Shown piece by piece: positions 55,831 through 64,000 of a DNA stretch of 64,000 bases. The DNA comes from Actinomycetes bacterium. GTDB lineage: Bacteria > Actinomycetota > Acidimicrobiia > Acidimicrobiales > Ilumatobacteraceae. The stretch spans positions 1 through 64,000 of the forward strand of contig JANYDH010000046.1 of assembly GCA_025359865.1 (NCBI GenBank). Reading direction: 5' to 3'. The first letter of the stretch is position 1; the number at the start of each line of letters is the position of its first letter. A program made the translations under genes and the position numbers. The notes under the pieces were generated by a model, which ran no database searches, was not told the origin of the DNA, and saw only the letters and a list, made by a program, of their open reading frames with translations.

Positions 55831-56334
55831 ATGGACCTGGACCACGATCTCGAACGCATCGCCGAGCAGGAACGGCGGTTGCGGTTCGCCAGCTTCGACG
55901 AAGACACCGCCTGGGGTCTCTGCTCGGTACTGCGCGCCCGGGCCGAGGCCAGAGGAGCGTCCGTGACCATCGAGGTGCGTCTCGCTGGCGCCACCGTCGC
56001 ATTCACTGCGATGCCTGGTACCGCACCCGCCAACGCCGATTGGGCCCGGCGTAAGCGCAACGTCGTGGAAACACTTCGGCGCAGTTCGTACGCGGTCGGG
56101 TTGGCCGCTGCTCGTCACGGCGGCGCGACCGAGACCCAGCTGATGAACCTCCCTGACCGCGACCACGCATGCCACGGCGGCTGCTTCCCGATCGTGGTCA
56201 ACGGCGTCGGTTTCGTCGGTGCTGTAACGGTCTCAGGGCTACCTCAACGCGAGGACCACAACCTTGTGGTCGAGGTACTTGCCGACATCTTGAGCGTGCC
56301 GCTGGAGGAGGTAGCACTCAGCTCGCGCGAGTGA
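55831..56334 (+). CDS. UPF0303/HbpS-like heme-degrading-domain protein
   Basis: A 167-aa protein of the UPF0303 (YBR137W/HbpS-GlcG) fold: RLRFASFDEDTAWGLCSVLR, VTIEVRLAGATVAFTAMPGT, WARRKRNVVETLRRSSYAVG, GCFPIVVNGVGFVGAVTVSG, LPQREDHNLVVEVLADIL. Some members bind or degrade heme; the function of most is unknown. It is divergent from DUF2127 and overlaps the 3' end of the convergent kinase gene by 17 nt. Confidence 0.8.
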   Translation: MDLDHDLERIAEQERRLRFASFDEDTAWGLCSVLRARAEARGASVTIEVRLAGATVAFTAMPGTAPANADWARRKRNVVETLRRSSYAVGLAAARHGGATETQLMNLPDRDHACHGGCFPIVVNGVGFVGAVTVSGLPQREDHNLVVEVLADILSVPLEEVALSSRE

Positions 56335-57262
56335 ATTCCAACAGCAACTTCTTCAACCGTGCGTCGGGCTCGGGCCGAGCACCGAGGTGCTCGATCACCC
56401 AGGCGGAGATACTGGTCGCGAACTTCGCCGCATCGACAGCTGATCCGTGCTTCAAGTAGTGGGCGAGGAACGAGCCAGCGAACGAGTCACCGGCACCGGT
56501 CGCATCGACCAGGTTGTTCGTGGCGGGAGGGACGTGAGTACTGATGCCGTGCTGATGCACGAACGAACCATCGGCATCCAGTTTCAGCAGCACCAGCGCT
56601 TCGGGAAACATCTCGGTGAGCCGCTCGGCGATCTGGTCGGGCTCATCCAGCCCGGTCAGCACCTTGCCCTCTTCGTAGTTCGGCAACAAGATGTCGATCC
56701 CGAGATCCTGGGTGTGCGACAGGAACGAGTCGAGGCCCATCTCCTGGATCATCTGGAACGAGCCGGGGTCGAACGACAGCGTGGCACCCGCGCCACGGGC
56801 GAGGTGCGCCGCTACTCGCGCCGCTGACCGGGGCGGGTCGATGAAGAACGACCACGCAGTCAAGTGGAGGTGCCGCGCCGCGCGAATCACGTCCTTGGGT
56901 ACTTCCGACGACAGCAGGTAGAAGTCGGCACCATGGCCGGAAACCATCGACCGTTCACCCGTGTGATCGACGAACACCGCAACAGAACCGGTGAGATGCG
57001 CCTCGGTCTCGACGAAGTGAGCGATGACTCCTTCTCGGGCAAGGTCCTCCTGGGCCAGTTGCCCCATCCGATCCCGACCGATCTTGCCGACGAAGTGGGC
57101 GGTAAGACCACACCGACTGGCCCACACCGCCACGTTCGCGGCGCTTCCCCCTGGGGTGAGCATCACCTCACCAAACGTGTCACCACCCTTCAACAGTTCG
57201 GAGTTGGTCCGGATCAGGACGTCCCAGGCGAAGTCGCCCAGTACACAAAGAGGTGTCGACAC
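56318..57262 (-). CDS. PfkB-family carbohydrate kinase
   Basis: A 314-aa protein (GTG 57262; ATG 57307 possible). Motifs: GGSAANVAVWASRCGL (first PfkB signature), FVGKIGRDRMG, and the catalytic DATGAGDSFAGSFLAHYL (second signature, with the Asp base). It resembles ribokinase or 2-keto-3-deoxygluconate kinase. It may act with the adjacent beta-hydroxyacid dehydrogenase-like gene on a sugar acid; the substrate is unknown. It ends inside the UPF0303 gene. Confidence 0.85.
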   Translation of the reverse strand: MSTPLCVLGDFAWDVLIRTNSELLKGGDTFGEVMLTPGGSAANVAVWASRCGLTAHFVGKIGRDRMGQLAQEDLAREGVIAHFVETEAHLTGSVAVFVDHTGERSMVSGHGADFYLLSSEVPKDVIRAARHLHLTAWSFFIDPPRSAARVAAHLARGAGATLSFDPGSFQMIQEMGLDSFLSHTQDLGIDILLPNYEEGKVLTGLDEPDQIAERLTEMFPEALVLLKLDADGSFVHQHGISTHVPPATNNLVDATGAGDSFAGSFLAHYLKHGSAVDAAKFATSISAWVIEHLGARPEPDARLKKLLLEFTRAS

Positions 57263-57316
57263 CCGGCCACCGTAGGACACAGGGTCGACATGCCTCTGGG
57301 TCGACACGTCACGGTG

Positions 57317-58282
57317 TCAGTCGGTATCCGGGCTGGATGTTCGTTCTGCGCGCGGCATCGTCGCCAGATAGTCCTCTAGCGTTTCCGGAAACCCCTCCGC
57401 GCGCAGGTCGGTGCCACATACCTCCTCCAGGAGCTTGGCGACCATCGGCGAGCCGGCGCCGCCTCCGTAGCGCGCCCGTCCCCGGATGTTGAGTTGCTCG
57501 ACCATGCCCGCGATGTCGAGCGGCACGTCGAGCTCACGGCCGAGTTGCAGCGCAAACCCGAGGTCTTTGCACGACAGATCCATGGTGAAGCCGATGTCGT
57601 AGCTGCCGCTGAGGATCGTGGTGGCCTCGGTCTCGTGGATGAAGCTGTTGCCGGAACTGGCCCGGATGACCTCCCATGCGAGACGCAAATCGATTCCGCC
57701 GCGTTTGGCGAGCATGAAGGCTTCCGCGGAGGCGGCCATGTGAATGAACGCGAGCATGTTGGTGATCACCTTGATGATCGCGGCCTTGCCCAACGATCCG
57801 ATGTAGAACACCGTCCCGCCGACCGCTTGAAAAACCGCGCGATGTCGCTCGAACGTGGCTTCATCTCCGCCGACCAACACCGTAATCGTGCCCGACGAGG
57901 CGTTGTGAACACCACCGGTGACCGGGGCCTCCAACGTCTCCACACCGATGTCGGCGAGAAGCCCCGCCAGCCGCTGCAGTTCGTGCAGGTCGTTGGTGCT
58001 CATTTCGATCCAGGTACTTCCTGGCGTGAACCCGTGCAGCAGCCCGTTCTCACCGGCGACCACCTGCGTGACCGCTTTCACCGAGGGCAGGCATGTGATG
58101 ACGGCGTCGCAACCGCGTGCCAACGCTGCCGGAGAGGTCGCCCACAGCGCACCGCTCGCGACCAGATCATCCGCCGCTGCCCGGTCGAGGTCATAGACGG
58201 TGACCGCGAACCCGGCAGCCAGAAGGTTCGCGGCGAGGTGGCGTCCGATGTTGCCCAGCCCTACGCATCCAATTCTCATCAC
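57317..58282 (-). CDS. 3-hydroxyisobutyrate dehydrogenase-like NAD(P) oxidoreductase
   Basis: A 321-aa protein. Rossmann motif GCVGLGNIGRHLAANLLAAG, EMSTNDLHELQRLA, substrate-binding EAPVTGGVHNASSGTITVLVG, catalytic Lys in GKAAIIKVITNML, and CKDLGFALQLGRELDVPLDIA. These fit the beta-hydroxyacid dehydrogenase family (3-hydroxyisobutyrate, tartronate semialdehyde and relatives). It overlaps the luciferase-like gene upstream by 4 nt. The true substrate is unknown. Confidence 0.88.
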   Translation of the reverse strand: MMRIGCVGLGNIGRHLAANLLAAGFAVTVYDLDRAAADDLVASGALWATSPAALARGCDAVITCLPSVKAVTQVVAGENGLLHGFTPGSTWIEMSTNDLHELQRLAGLLADIGVETLEAPVTGGVHNASSGTITVLVGGDEATFERHRAVFQAVGGTVFYIGSLGKAAIIKVITNMLAFIHMAASAEAFMLAKRGGIDLRLAWEVIRASSGNSFIHETEATTILSGSYDIGFTMDLSCKDLGFALQLGRELDVPLDIAGMVEQLNIRGRARYGGGAGSPMVAKLLEEVCGTDLRAEGFPETLEDYLATMPRAERTSSPDTD

Positions 58283-59121
58283 GTTGCAACCGTACTCAGC
58301 AGTGTCGCCAGCCGACCGACATCATCGGGGTCGTGCGGAGAGGGCAACGAGACGAGGCACAACGTGACACCCAGCTCTGAGAATCGTTCGATGTCGGCCA
58401 ACACTGCATCCGTGCCGTCATAGCGCAGCAGGTTCGACACGGTGATCGCACCAGGGTCTCGCCCGATGTCGGCGCAGTGACGGTGCAAGACGTCGAGCTT
58501 GCGCGAAAACGCTTCCGCGTCAAGTGCAGGGGCATTCCAGTGATCGGCCCAACGAGCAACAGCCCGTAGCGTGCGCTGCTCACCCTGTCCGCCGATGCAG
58601 ATCGGCGGACGCGGCGTCTGCACAGCCTTCGGAACCAGCAACGCGTCCACGAGTTGGTAGTAGAGACCGGAGAAGTTTGTGCGCTCGGAGGTGAGTAGTG
58701 CATGGATCACGGCAAGACCCTCGTCGAGACGATCGAAACGCTCGCGTAACGAGCCGAGCGTGATTCCGTACGCGTCGCACTCGGCTTGGAACCACCCCGC
58801 GCCGAGCCCGATCTCCAGCCGTCCGGCCGCCGCGATGTCGATCGTGGCGATCATGTTCGCCAGCAACGCGGGATGACGATATGGCATCGCCGAGACGAGC
58901 AGCCCACCGCGAATCCGAGTGGTCCTCGCAAGCAGCATCGACAGGGCGGTCCATCCCTCCAGGCATGGCCCGGTCGGCTCGGTGAACAGCGGATAGAAGT
59001 GATCGAACAGCCAGCCCGACTCGAAGATCGGCAGTTGGTCGGCCGCCTGCCAGCAGGCATCCAATCGGTCCCAGGTCGTCTTGTGCTGTGCTGTCGAGAG
59101 GGCGAATCGCATGACCCGCAC
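58279..59121 (-). CDS. Luciferase-like monooxygenase, F420-dependent type
   Basis: A 280-aa protein with LLM-class signatures: ALSTAQHKTTWDRLDACWQA, SGWLFDHFYP, ARTTRIRGGLLVSAMPYRHP, IDIAAAGRLEIGLGAGWFQAE, and KAVQTPRPPICIGGQGEQRT. Many actinobacterial members use F420. The start may be 59121 or Met at 59112. It shares a 4-nt overlap with the downstream dehydrogenase, suggesting a linked reaction. Confidence 0.85.
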   Translation of the reverse strand: MRVMRFALSTAQHKTTWDRLDACWQAADQLPIFESGWLFDHFYPLFTEPTGPCLEGWTALSMLLARTTRIRGGLLVSAMPYRHPALLANMIATIDIAAAGRLEIGLGAGWFQAECDAYGITLGSLRERFDRLDEGLAVIHALLTSERTNFSGLYYQLVDALLVPKAVQTPRPPICIGGQGEQRTLRAVARWADHWNAPALDAEAFSRKLDVLHRHCADIGRDPGAITVSNLLRYDGTDAVLADIERFSELGVTLCLVSLPSPHDPDDVGRLATLLSTVAT

Positions 59122-59169: not shown

Positions 59170-60384
59170 TCAGCGAAACGGCTCGCCTCCGACGATGGTG
59201 GCGTGAATGAGCGGCACACCCGGACGGTAGACGAGGTCGATCGGGTTCGTCGTCTCGAGTACCGCGAGATCGCCTCGGGCGCCTACTACGAGGCGGCCGA
59301 TGTCGCTGCGCCGAAGTGCTGCAGCACCACCCGCAGTGGCCGACCAGATCGCCTCGTCGATCGTCATCCGCATCTCACGCACTGCGAGCGCGATGCAGAA
59401 CGACATCGAGGTGGTAAAGCTGGAACCAGGGTTGCAGTTGGTGGCTAGTGCGGCCACCCCGCCGGCATCGAGCAGTCGTCGGGCATCCGGATAGGGCTGG
59501 CGGGTGGAGAAGTCGGTAGCGGGCAGGAACGTCGCCACCGTCGCGCCCCCGACCAACGCTTCGATGTCGACATCGCTCAGGTAGGTGCAGTGATCGGCCG
59601 ACGCGCAGCCGAGTTCGACAGCGAGCTTCACCCCAGGGCCGTGACCGAGCTGATTGGCGTGCAGCCGCATCCCGAGACCTGCATCACGGCCGGCTAGCAA
59701 GACGGCGCGGCATTGATCGGCGTCGAATGCGCCCTGTTCACAGAACGCGTCGATCCAGCGCGCATGCGGAGCCGCTGCCGCGAGCATCTCGGTACAGACC
59801 AGTTCGACGTAGTGATCGGCTCGGCCGTCGAACTCTGGCGGCACGACGTGTGCACCGAGGAACGTGGTTTCGGTCGTGAGTTCGGCGGCGACGCCAAGCA
59901 GGCGGGCCTCGTCGGTGGAGGTGAGCCCATAGCCGGATTTGATCTCGATAGTCGTGGTGCCGGCTCGGTATACCTCGGCCAGCAACGCTGCACTCCGACT
60001 GCGCAGATCGGCCGTCGAGGCGGCCCCGGTGGCGGCGACCGTCGTACGGATGCCGCCTGCAGCGTAGGGGCTTCCGGCCATCCGGGCGGCGAACTCGTCG
60101 GCACGATCACCAGCGAACACCAGATGGCTATGGCTGTCGACGAAACCGGGCAACACGCAGCGACCCGCTACGTCGATCCGTCGGTCGGCCGATGGCGCTG
60201 TCCCCGTCCCCACGGCCTCAACGCTCCCGGCGCGCACGACCACCCACGCGTTGCCCAGTACCCCTAACAGTCCGGTCCCCAACGTGGGATCGTTGGTGAC
60301 GAGTCGTCCAATCCCGTCGATCAGCACGGCAGCCTGGTCACCCCCGTCAGCCTGGTCACCCCCGTCACCCTGGTCGGCCGTCAT
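59170..60384 (-). CDS. hutI: Imidazolonepropionase HutI
   Basis: A 404-aa amidohydrolase. The N-terminus holds an 18-bp-repeat-encoded GDQADG tract. Motifs: [17 protein letters not shown] (metal HxH), [55 protein letters not shown], and [13 protein letters not shown]. It converts 4-imidazolone-5-propionate to N-formimino-glutamate. ATG 60384 overlaps the hutF stop (ATGA). Confidence 0.93.
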
Positions 60385-61772
60385 GGCCATACCTGACGTA
60401 TCGACCGGCGCAGGTCGCGGGCCAGGTCGATCCGCTGATGCATCCGGTCGGAGACGACGACCTGTCCCCCGACGACGACGTGGTGGACATCGTCGCTCGT
60501 GGCCGCGTATACGACTGCCGCTGCCGCGTGCAACGCGTCGGTGCCCGCCAAGCGCGACGATGACAGGCCGACCGTGACCAGATCGGCGAGCGCGCCGATC
60601 GCGAGACGGCCTGCGTCGTGCCAACCCAGGCTGCGGTGGCCGACCGCCGTTCCAGCCGCGAACAAGTCGCCCGGCCGATGGGTGCCGCGGCGCAGCGTGG
60701 CCAGACGTTCATCCAGTTCGACGGCACGGATCTCTTCGAACGGATCGATCACCGCGTGCGAGTCGGTGCCGACGCACATTGCGACCGCCGCCGCGCGTAG
60801 CGCACCACTCGGTCCGATGCCATCGGCCAGATCGCGTTCGGTGGTGGGACACAGGCAACAGATCGACCCGGATGATCCGTACAGAGCAACGTCATGGCCG
60901 GTCAGGTGGGTGGCATGTACGGCGGTGAACCGAGGGCCGAGCGCACCGCAGTCGGCCAACACTTCCGTCGGTGTTCGACCATAGGCGGCGAGACATTGAT
61001 CGTTCTCCGCCGGTTGCTCGCTGACGTGCGCGTGCAACGGTGCCGACCGGTTGGCAGCCCATTCGGCAATCGTGGAGATCGACTTGGGATCCACGGCCCG
61101 CACGGAATGGACCGCCCCGCCGACGCGCACCGTGTCGCTCCCCACCAGCGTGTCACTCCCCACCAGCGCGTCGACGCGTTCGGCCCACATACCGACATCG
61201 CCGTCGCTGAACCTTCGCTGAACCGGGCTCAACTCGCCGCCACCGATTCCGCCACTCAGGTAGCAGGTGTCAAGGAGGGTCAGCCGGATTCCTGCCGCCT
61301 GGGCTGCGCCGATCAGTGCATCACCCATCTCATTCGCGTTCGTGTACGGGCGGCCGAGGCGATCGTGGTGCAGATAATGGAACTCGCCGACGCACGTGAA
61401 TCCGGCGCGCACCATCTCGGCAAACGTGGCGGTGGCGAGCGCACGGTAGCTGTCGGGATCGAGCGTTGCCGCGAGCTCGTACATCCGTTCACGCCATGTC
61501 CAAAATGAGCCTGCGTCTGCGTGGGTACGGCCGCGCAACGCACGGTGAAACGCATGACTGTGGGCATTGGCGAAGCCCGGCAAGGTAAGCCCCTCGAGAC
61601 GAACAGCGCCCGGCGGCGGCGCGGCCACCTCGGTGTCGATGGCGGCGATCCGGTCGCCGACAACCGTGATGGAGACGCCCGCATGAACCGCGCCGGCGGC
61701 GTCGTCGCCACTGCCGGCGGCATCAGCATCACCGGTTCCGAGCCATGCCAGTTCGCACCAGTAGACGGTCAC
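60381..61772 (-). CDS. hutF: Formimidoylglutamate deiminase HutF
   Basis: A 463-aa amidohydrolase. [19 protein letters not shown] (metal HxH), [59 protein letters not shown] and [20 protein letters not shown] are HutF-typical. It deiminates N-formimino-glutamate to N-formylglutamate, which defines the two-step (HutF/HutG) branch. The GTG start at 61772 overlaps the stop of the deformylase homologue upstream (GTGA). Confidence 0.93.
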
Positions 61773-62371
61773 GAGCCGACCCTCGCGACGAACGCCGTGA
61801 TCCGCTCGATGAACGCCGCACGATGGAACCGTTCGAACTGCTCCCACGTGGTGAACGTGCGCGGGTCGGTCACGCGGTCGAGGAACAGCACACCGTCAAG
61901 ATGGTCGCATTCGTGTTGGAACGTGCCCGCCGTCAACCCCCGCTTGCGTTCGTCGTGCGCCGCTCCGCCGCGGTCGAGATGGCGGACGCGCACGTTCACG
62001 TGGCGCATCACCGAGCCGCGTAAGTTCGGAACCGACAAACATCCCTCGTTGATCTCGACCATCTCGTCGGTGCCATCATCGGTGCCATCATCGGCCGCCA
62101 CCGGTTCGATGACCGGGTTGACGATCACCGTGAGCGGGATGCGCGGCTTGTAGGGGTAGCGCGGGTTGTCGTTGACCTCGATGACGGCGATACGCAGCGG
62201 CACCCCGATCTGGTTGGCTGCAATGCCTGCGCCGTTAGCGTGGCGCATGGTGTCGATCAGGTCGTCGATGAGTTGTTGCACCTCAACGGACGCGAGCTCG
62301 TCTACCGTGACCTCGCGGGCGCGTTCACGCAACACCGGGTGACCGACGGTGACGATCTCGCGCACGGTCAT
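61769..62371 (-). CDS. Peptide deformylase homologue in the hut operon
   Basis: A 200-aa protein with intact deformylase motifs: GAGIAANQIG (47-56; normally GxGLAAxQxG), EGCLSVP (109-115) and QHECDHLDG (152-160; HExxH metal site). An acidic insertion (DDGTDDGTDE) lies before motif 2. It overlaps hutF and the PhyH gene by 4 nt each. No hutG gene is seen in the window. It may deformylate N-formylglutamate instead of, or as well as, peptides. Alternatively it is an ordinary Def that sits in this operon by chance. The GAGIA variant is one small difference from house-keeping Def. Confidence 0.9.
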   Translation of the reverse strand: MTVREIVTVGHPVLRERAREVTVDELASVEVQQLIDDLIDTMRHANGAGIAANQIGVPLRIAVIEVNDNPRYPYKPRIPLTVIVNPVIEPVAADDGTDDGTDEMVEINEGCLSVPNLRGSVMRHVNVRVRHLDRGGAAHDERKRGLTAGTFQHECDHLDGVLFLDRVTDPRTFTTWEQFERFHRAAFIERITAFVARVGS

Positions 62372-63162
62372 GCGGCACGCTCATACAGCACGGGGAACAG
62401 CGGGTGATCCATCGGTGCGCCTGCGGCGAGTTCGGCATCGAGGCCAGGAAACGGCGGCGAGGTGACCCAACGGCGCGGCGCGTGCACCATGTCGTCGCCG
62501 AGGAAGCGAACCGACAGCACGCGCCGCCGGTTCGGCCCATCCACCCCTCCGGCACCATGGAGAGCGAGCATGTGGAAGAACACCGCATCACCGGGTTCCA
62601 ATTCCCACCCGATCACCTTGTAGCGAACAGGGTCGGCGTCGATGTCGGGCAGCTCCGCGAGTGCGCCCTCCGGAAACCACTTTGCCTGGCCGTCGAGGAA
62701 CGTACGCGGCATGTACCACGGGCCAGCGTGCGAGCCGGCGACGAACTCGAGCGTCGACGCTCTCGAAACCGGATCGACGGGAAACCACATACTGGCATTC
62801 TGCTGGCCGGCGACGTTGTAGTACGGCAGGTCCTGATGCCATGGCGTGCGTTGCCGCGTGCCGGGCTCTTTCACCAACACATGATCGTGATACAGCCGAA
62901 TGACGTGGGACCCCGTGACCTGTGCGGCGACCCTCGCCGCCGGTGATGTGCGAATGAACTGCTCCATTTCCGGGATGCGCCGCCATGAGCAGAAGTCTTC
63001 GATGAACGCACCATCGCCCGCGTCGCTGGCCCGCTTCGCATTCGGTGACAGATGGGCAAGGTTGGCGTCGATCGCCCGTCGGGCAAGGTCGACTTGATCG
63101 ACCGAAAACGCTCCGCGCACGCAGATCGCTCCATCTCGCGCGTAGTCGCCCTCGATCATCAC
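62368..63162 (-). CDS. PhyH-type 2-oxoglutarate/Fe(II) dioxygenase
   Basis: A 264-aa protein. [30 protein letters not shown] (His-x-Asp), and [20 protein letters not shown] (distal His then Arg for 2-oxoglutarate) match phytanoyl-CoA dioxygenase-like enzymes. Iron ligands are complete. It sits between hutU and the deformylase homologue with 4-nt overlaps. An oxygenase has no known role in histidine breakdown; it may act on a histidine-derived compound such as ergothioneine or hydroxy-histidine. Inference only. Confidence 0.88.
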
Positions 63163-64000
63163 GGGTGATCCCTCATCGGCACACGCACCCCGCGTTCGGC
63201 GGCAACCTCGATGGCACGTTCGTACCCCGCATCAGCATGACGAATGACACCCATTCCCGGGTCGGCGGTCAGCACCCGCGCCAGCTTCTGCGCGGCGAGT
63301 TCGGTGCCGTCGGCGACGCAGACCATGCCCGCGTGGATCGAGCGGCCGATGCCGACGCCGCCGCCGTGATGGATGCTCACCCATGTCGCGCCGCACGAGG
63401 TGTTGACCAACGCGTTCAACAGCGGCCAATCGGCGATCGCGTCGGATCCGTCGGCCATCGCCTCGGTTTCGCGATACGGCGACGCGACCGAGCCGGAGTC
63501 GAGATGATCACGGCCGATCACGATCGGTGCCGAGACCTGGCCAGTGCGGACCATCTCGTTGAACCGTAGGCCTAGTCGGTGACGTTCGCCGTACCCGAGC
63601 CAGCAGATCCGCGCAGGCAGTCCCTGAAACGCGACCTGTTCGCTGGCGAGCTTGATCCAGCGGTGCAGGTTCTCGTCGTCGGGAAACTCTTCGAGTACCG
63701 CCTGGTCGGTTGCGGCAATGTCGGCCGGATCACCGGACAGCGCGACCCACCGGAACGGGCCCTTGCCCTCGCAGAACAACGGGCGAATGTACGCCGGCAG
63801 GAAGCCTGGGTAGTCGAACGCGCGCTCGAATCCACCGAGCTTGGCCTCGGTACGCAAGCTGTTGCCGTAGTCGAACACCTCTGCTCCACGGTCGAGGTAG
63901 CCGACCATCGCCGCGCAGTGCGCGGCCATCGACATACGTGCCCGGCGGATCAGTTCGGCCGGGTCGGTGCGGGCCAGTTCGGCCATCGCGTCGTGCGAGA
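63159..64000 (-). CDS. hutU: Urocanate hydratase HutU, C-terminal part
   Basis: The gene runs off the window end; about 280 C-terminal residues are seen. [38 protein letters not shown] (PGFLP variant), [40 protein letters not shown] and [20 protein letters not shown]-like motifs fit urocanase (the last reads [16 protein letters not shown] here). It hydrates urocanate to imidazolonepropionate using NAD+. It is the first hut gene seen and overlaps the PhyH gene by 4 nt. Confidence 0.92.

Follow-up and report, generated by a model that had tools for sequence, protein, structure and literature searches.

A peptide deformylase homologue encoded beside hutF as a probable N-formylglutamate deformylase of bacterial histidine degradation

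The final step of the histidine-degradation pathway that runs through HutF is the deformylation of N-formylglutamate by HutG, an amidohydrolase unrelated to the peptide deformylases (PDFs). As an alternative, the COG0624 family was predicted to supply the N-formylglutamate deformylase in the histidine-degradation subsystem of SEED (PMC3223725). In the entry for the Streptomyces avermitilis member of that family, deformylase activity is given as not detected (PMC3223725, Table 3, case 20), and such predictions can mislead, as this failed case illustrates (PMC3223725). Because the published COG0624 candidate tested negative, the question of an alternative enzyme was open (PMC3223725). Within the library of papers searched, we found no work linking a PDF to formylglutamate.

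Here we describe a hut operon at the end of a 64,000-nucleotide stretch, henceforth the window, of contig JANYDH010000046.1 from an Actinomycetes bacterium of the Ilumatobacteraceae (GCA_025359865.1), in which a protein of the PDF family is encoded immediately before hutF (Table 1). From upstream to downstream the genes run hutU-phyH-PDF-hutF-hutI, and we confirmed the earlier observation that all four junctions are 4-nt overlaps (GTGA for hutU/phyH, ATGA for phyH/PDF, GTGA for PDF/hutF, and ATGA for hutF/hutI). The PDF frame runs from 62371 down to 61769, the plus-strand reading of the same interval being interrupted by a stop, and HutH, HutU, HutF and HutI all pass their NCBIfam equivalog cut-offs. 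After hutI, the same strand codes for an F420-type LLM oxidoreductase, a hydroxyisobutyrate-dehydrogenase-like protein and a PfkB kinase (56318-59121). On the basis of sequence comparison and gene context, we posit with a probability of roughly 0.8 that the PDF-family protein is the N-formylglutamate deformylase of this operon, i.e. a type of HutG unrelated to the N-formylglutamate amidohydrolase (FGase) and catalyzing the last step of the histidine pathway.

Table 1. Features of the hut locus and of its PDF-family protein
Feature	Position	Strand	Basis or remark
hutI, imidazolonepropionase	59170..60384	-	TIGR01224 340.4 bits, cut-off 298.15
hutF, formimidoylglutamate deiminase, makes N-formylglutamate	60381..61772	-	NF006681 603.2 bits, cut-off 362
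PDF-family protein, 200 aa, proposed N-formylglutamate deformylase	61769..62371	-	PF01327, TIGR00079, AlphaFold model
Motif 3 HECDH, residues 153-157; AGTFQ with Thr150 just before	61901..61915	-	Alignment
Motif 2 EGCLS, residues 109-113	62033..62047	-	Alignment
Acidic insert, residues 92-100	62072..62098	-	Gap in 97-98% of 83 hut-linked rows
Loop NPRYPYKP, residues 69-76	62144..62167	-	Alignment
Motif 1 GAGIAANQ, residues 47-54	62210..62233	-	Second residue Ala, Val in most canonical rows
PhyH-type dioxygenase, between hutU and PDF	62368..63162	-	PF05721 84.5 bits
hutU, urocanate hydratase, continues past window end to 64742	63159..64000	-	TIGR01228 464.8 bits on in-window part, cut-off 375
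hutH	64862-66382		Beyond window, same contig
IclR-like regulator, divergent	66403-67140		Beyond window, same contig; IclR-family model matches, all below cut-offs

Profile searches place the window protein in the PDF family, with 154.6 bits against PF01327 (curated cut-off 22.8) and 119.1 against TIGR00079 (peptide deformylase; cut-off 103.95). At E 0.001 no Pfam family besides PF01327 was detected in it, homology to PF05013 being absent, and the NF006770 profile for the M20 hydrolase of hut operons did not match it. Its AlphaFold model (pLDDT 92.3) displays the PDF fold, with 1sv2_B as the best PDB match (E 1.3e-21). The sequence-only reading had described complete deformylase motifs, and GAGIAANQ, EGCLS and HECDH are indeed all present; in an alignment with 83 hut-linked rows, Q54, C111, H153, E154 and H157 are conserved in 100% of them. 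That reading had also pointed to an altered motif 1 and to an acidic insert. The former stands for residue 48, the second of the motif, which is Ala in 93% and Gly in 4% of the hut-linked rows as against Val in 83%, Ala in 11% and Ile in 5% of 18 canonical rows, which comprise the next-best matches of the order and the genome's own def and, with five clustering apart from the rest, are no neutral sample. It does not stand for the fourth residue of the motif, Ile in the window protein, where the 83 rows vary between Ile (55%) and Leu (44%). The insert is likewise present and nearly private to the window protein; because almost all hut-linked rows have a gap there, it falls outside any shared mechanism and is ruled out as a specificity element. 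Outside the motifs, residue 150 is Thr in 100% of the 83 hut-linked rows and of the sister rows and Ala, Val, Ile or Cys in most of the 18 canonical rows; N69, R71, Y72, P73, Y74 and K75 show no variation among either the hut-linked rows or their non-hut sisters; and Arg71, Lys75 and Arg118 are invariant among the hut-linked rows. Positions that differ between the hut-linked and non-hut rows include, for example, 56, 107, 108, 126, 130, 131 and 139.

The source assembly (4.99 Mb, 219 contigs, 96.6% complete) contains two PF01327 proteins by profile search, so that the window protein is not its sole PDF. The other def overlaps fmt by 4 nt (C136:9308-10734), and the window gene is not beside fmt; this fmt scores 188.7 bits, slightly below the TIGR00460 cut-off of 201.5, TIGR00460 being its best match. 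PF05013, the FGase or HutG family, had no match in the 96.6% complete assembly, in line with the earlier remark that hutG is missing: no FGase-type hutG lies just past the window or elsewhere in the assembly. An arginase-type HutG was rejected as a candidate, the only arginase-family protein of the genome resembling agmatinase (208.8 bits, above the cut-off of 174.3) rather than formimidoylglutamase (173.4 bits, below the cut-off of 229.15). The window protein is thus encoded with hutF in a genome that has no other known HutG.

To place this arrangement in its lineage we drew 148 genomes from the order, 143 of which had some PDF match. Slots beside hutF were counted by tblastn because our home-made gene finder missed some PDFs. 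The window subtype was found in 13 of the 148, the source genome included, with scores of at least 230 bits, whereas the best-scoring gene outside it reaches 108 bits; the other 12 carriers have versions 64-78% identical to the window protein, and in one of the 13 (G052) the gene is broken by Ns and yields two pieces. In all 13 carriers the subtype gene lies in the hut operon. HutF scores above its cut-off in 22 of the 148 genomes, among them every one of the 13 carriers, a co-occurrence with a hypergeometric probability of 3e-13 if relatedness is ignored. The slot beside hutF in these 22 is occupied by the PDF in 13, by an M20 protein matching NF006770 above its cut-off in five (L074, L075, L078, L079 and L082), by neither in four and by both in none; such exclusion would arise by chance with a probability of about 0.005, again ignoring relatedness. 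We take the M20 protein of these operons to belong to the COG0624 group. PF05013 had no match in any of the nine hutF genomes of the order that lack the PDF. Among the 13 genomes with the PDF, three have a PF05013 protein elsewhere, but all of these proteins score below the HutG cut-off. The four operons with neither enzyme (L076, L077, L080 and L081, from G017, G009, G137 and G031), three of whose genomes have M20 homologues below the cut-off elsewhere, count against our proposal, as there is neither a PF05013 protein nor a visible candidate in them.

A scan of named genomes recovered 476 relatives, and among the best 80 of these, 71 are in hut operons and nine are not. HutF was found in 68 of these 80 loci and is the next downstream hut gene in 67. 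Hut-linked PDFs occur, among others, in Desertimonas flava, Candidatus Microthrix, Ilumatobacter, Conexibacter and members of the Solirubrobacterales. In a sample of 396 genomes of the phylum, 12 match at 1e-40 or better, 10 of them in hut operons and two (G303, 54% identity; G356, 42%) outside them. These counts overlap, in that five of the 71 loci are contigs of the order genomes and three (L116, L129 and L138) recur in the phylum search. The hut linkage is maintained across 55-83% identity and through rearrangement, e.g. hutF-PDF-hutI in L234 and L282 and hutI-PDF in L138. No hutF was found within 5 kb downstream of the PDF in L098, nor any hutU within 6 kb upstream of it in L099 and L131. 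Between hutU and the PDF, three loci (L085, 6539-7978; L132, 4607-5845; L153, 4592-5836) contain an additional histidine-ammonia-lyase-like gene that is only distantly related (29-31% identity). One of the two unlinked phylum matches (L280, G303:C6, 3397-3981) is flanked by Ppx/GppA-like and PLP-enzyme-like genes, with isopropylmalate-dehydratase-like genes further out (neighbours named by eye from sequence), and this PDF perhaps serves another formyl-amino-acid pathway. Separately, L150, labelled Myxococcales, and L154, labelled Phycisphaerales, have an almost identical succession of genes along 12.5 kb, suggesting that an assembly is mislabelled or contaminated.

We examined 41 of the 71 genomes with hut-linked PDFs, taking alternate numbers plus five. 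At least two PF01327 matches are present in 39 of the 41, the additional ones in G161, G186 and G163 being fragments at contig ends, and PF05013 is absent from 38, the other three matching at 54-87 bits. Of the six PF05013 proteins of hut-PDF genomes (three among these 41 and three among the 13 of the order), the four that were scanned (G102, G100, G052 and G170) score 26-65 bits against TIGR02017 (cut-off 278.75). The canonical PDF is paired with fmt in 19 of 19 canonical loci of such genomes (among L175-L204) and in six of six further regions fetched, at least one contig of which is counted also among the 19.

Relatives outside hut operons include proteins of the Myxococcota that are 53-64% identical to the window protein and possess the same Ala48, Thr150 and NPRYPYKP features. 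A match of 1e-40 or better was obtained in 88 of 282 genomes from the phylum to which the Polyangium genome belongs; none of the 30 loci listed has hut genes within the flanks of 1.5 kb or less that were available on each side. Crude gene calls revealed no family besides the PDF itself in more than five of 36 such loci. The nine genomes of the non-hut loci among the best 80 all have at least two PF01327 matches, and eight of them have PF05013; the FGase of the Polyangium genome scores 125 bits against TIGR02017 (cut-off 278.75). In the same nine, HutF as modeled by TIGR02022 is above the cut-off of 413 in G192 and reaches 381-393 bits, below that cut-off, in four. A hut-specific signature made up of Ala48, Thr150 and the NPRYPYKP loop is therefore not upheld, and these features are no proven mark of formylglutamate hydrolysis, because the non-hut Myxococcota relatives possess them too. 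A pocket common to the non-hut relatives implies either that the same activity exists there or that these residues are not decisive.

Such relatives without hut linkage are the kind of evidence that might be read as favoring an ordinary second peptide deformylase which landed in the hut operon by chance, another enzyme handling the formylglutamate. The window protein does pass the general PDF models, and its modeled fold is very near that of a Leptospira PDF. We nevertheless consider this improbable: chance insertion sits poorly with a linkage that survives 55-83% identity and rearrangement and with the presence of hutF in all 13 carriers of the order, and the housekeeping role is already covered by the def-fmt pair in the 19 canonical loci and the six fetched regions.

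A second reading retains the hut context and changes the substrate to another small formyl compound of the operon, e.g. a product of the PhyH dioxygenase or a compound derived from a histidine analogue. The PhyH-type gene lies upstream of the PDF in the window and in 15 of the best 80 loci of the 476 relatives; against this, it was not seen in 56 of the 71 hut-linked loci, some of which are cut by contig ends, and the steady partner is hutF (68 of the same 80 loci), whose product is N-formylglutamate. We hence regard a different formyl substrate as unlikely. Least probable is that the PDF is an accessory and that an M20 hydrolase or another unlinked enzyme performs the real deformylation. Of the 13 order genomes with the PDF, 12 do contain M20 homologues below the NF006770 cut-off, but the subtype that adjoins hutF, scoring above that cut-off, is missing from all 13.

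Phylogenetic analysis bears on how the PDF entered these operons. Forty-eight hut-linked rows were chosen by hand, L154 and every second Myxococcota locus were omitted, and near-copies (L243, L229, L230, L034, L029 and L141) and long branches (L196 and L180) were further dropped. The resulting tree comprises 93 rows and unites 45 of the 46 hut-linked PDFs in a single group with a support of 97/96. The exception, L234, is from the window's own family and has the order hutU-hutF-PDF-hutI; it sits among Myxococcota proteins (66% identity to L157) on a long branch (0.55) whose exact placement is poorly supported. A single clade of all 46 hut-linked PDFs is rejected with an AU p of 0.018; the group tested was defined by operon context, but the test was chosen after inspection of the tree. 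These data suggest, without proving, two separate recruitments of a PDF into hut operons. Somewhat speculatively, one could imagine that this whole accessory branch of PDFs acts on free formyl amino acids instead of nascent proteins, that the activity predates the hut link and exists in Myxococcota too, and that hut operons recruited the branch on two or more occasions to serve as a new kind of HutG.

Returning to the N-formylglutamate deformylase that we favor, the sequence-only reading had proposed that this Def paralogue may hydrolyze N-formylglutamate; its position was right and the function probably so, the inferred substrate being supported by the conserved hut linkage, the exclusion with the M20 protein beside hutF and the apparent second recruitment. 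The enzyme would split the N-formyl-L-glutamate that HutF produces into L-glutamate and formate by ordinary PDF chemistry: Cys111, His153 and His157 would hold the metal, Glu154 would activate the water, and Gln54 together with the Leu112 backbone would stabilize the tetrahedral intermediate. These roles, including that of Cys111 as a metal ligand, follow those of the PDF family in general. A shift in specificity from formyl-Met peptides towards a small di-acid might have come about as the S1' pocket became less hydrophobic (Ala48, Gly149 and Thr150), with Arg71, Lys75 and Arg118 as candidate basic contacts for the two carboxylates. The comparison is with plant PDF1B, in which Ile42 and Ile130 are described as shaping a hydrophobic S1' pocket (PMC3101196). 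Counting from the motifs, we equate these two residues with Ala48 and Thr150, on the assumption, in the case of Ile130, that His137 of the plant enzyme is the second His of HExxH. A pocket that is less hydrophobic would suit the side chain of glutamate more than that of methionine, though the non-hut relatives have it too.

If the proposal is true, many Acidimicrobiia and Thermoleophilia would have an enzyme for the last step of histidine breakdown that they seemed to lack, and the peptide deformylase family would acquire a role in metabolism. A recurring mis-annotation would also come to light, since a protein of this kind is labeled as peptide deformylase by the general models.

Among known proteins, the Leptospira interrogans PDF (1sv2, 1y6h) is structurally very close to the window protein: the model superimposes on 1sv2_B with a TM-score of 0.97 by target length and an rmsd of 1.0 A, and the two share 42% identity over the structural alignment, the same three motifs and the RYP of the loop. 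The Leptospira enzyme differs in having Val at both 48 and 150, Ile at 149 and no YK in the loop. The Myxococcota accessory PDFs resemble the window protein in the loop and in the Ala/Thr signature and differ in not being beside hut genes in the 30 loci. The M20 allantoate-amidohydrolase-like protein (NF006770) adjoins hutF as the PDF does, in five of the 22 operons, but is of another family and in these genomes never appears above its cut-off together with a hut PDF. With HutG itself (PF05013, TIGR02017), the window protein shares the proposed reaction and the place in the pathway, though the two come from different protein families.
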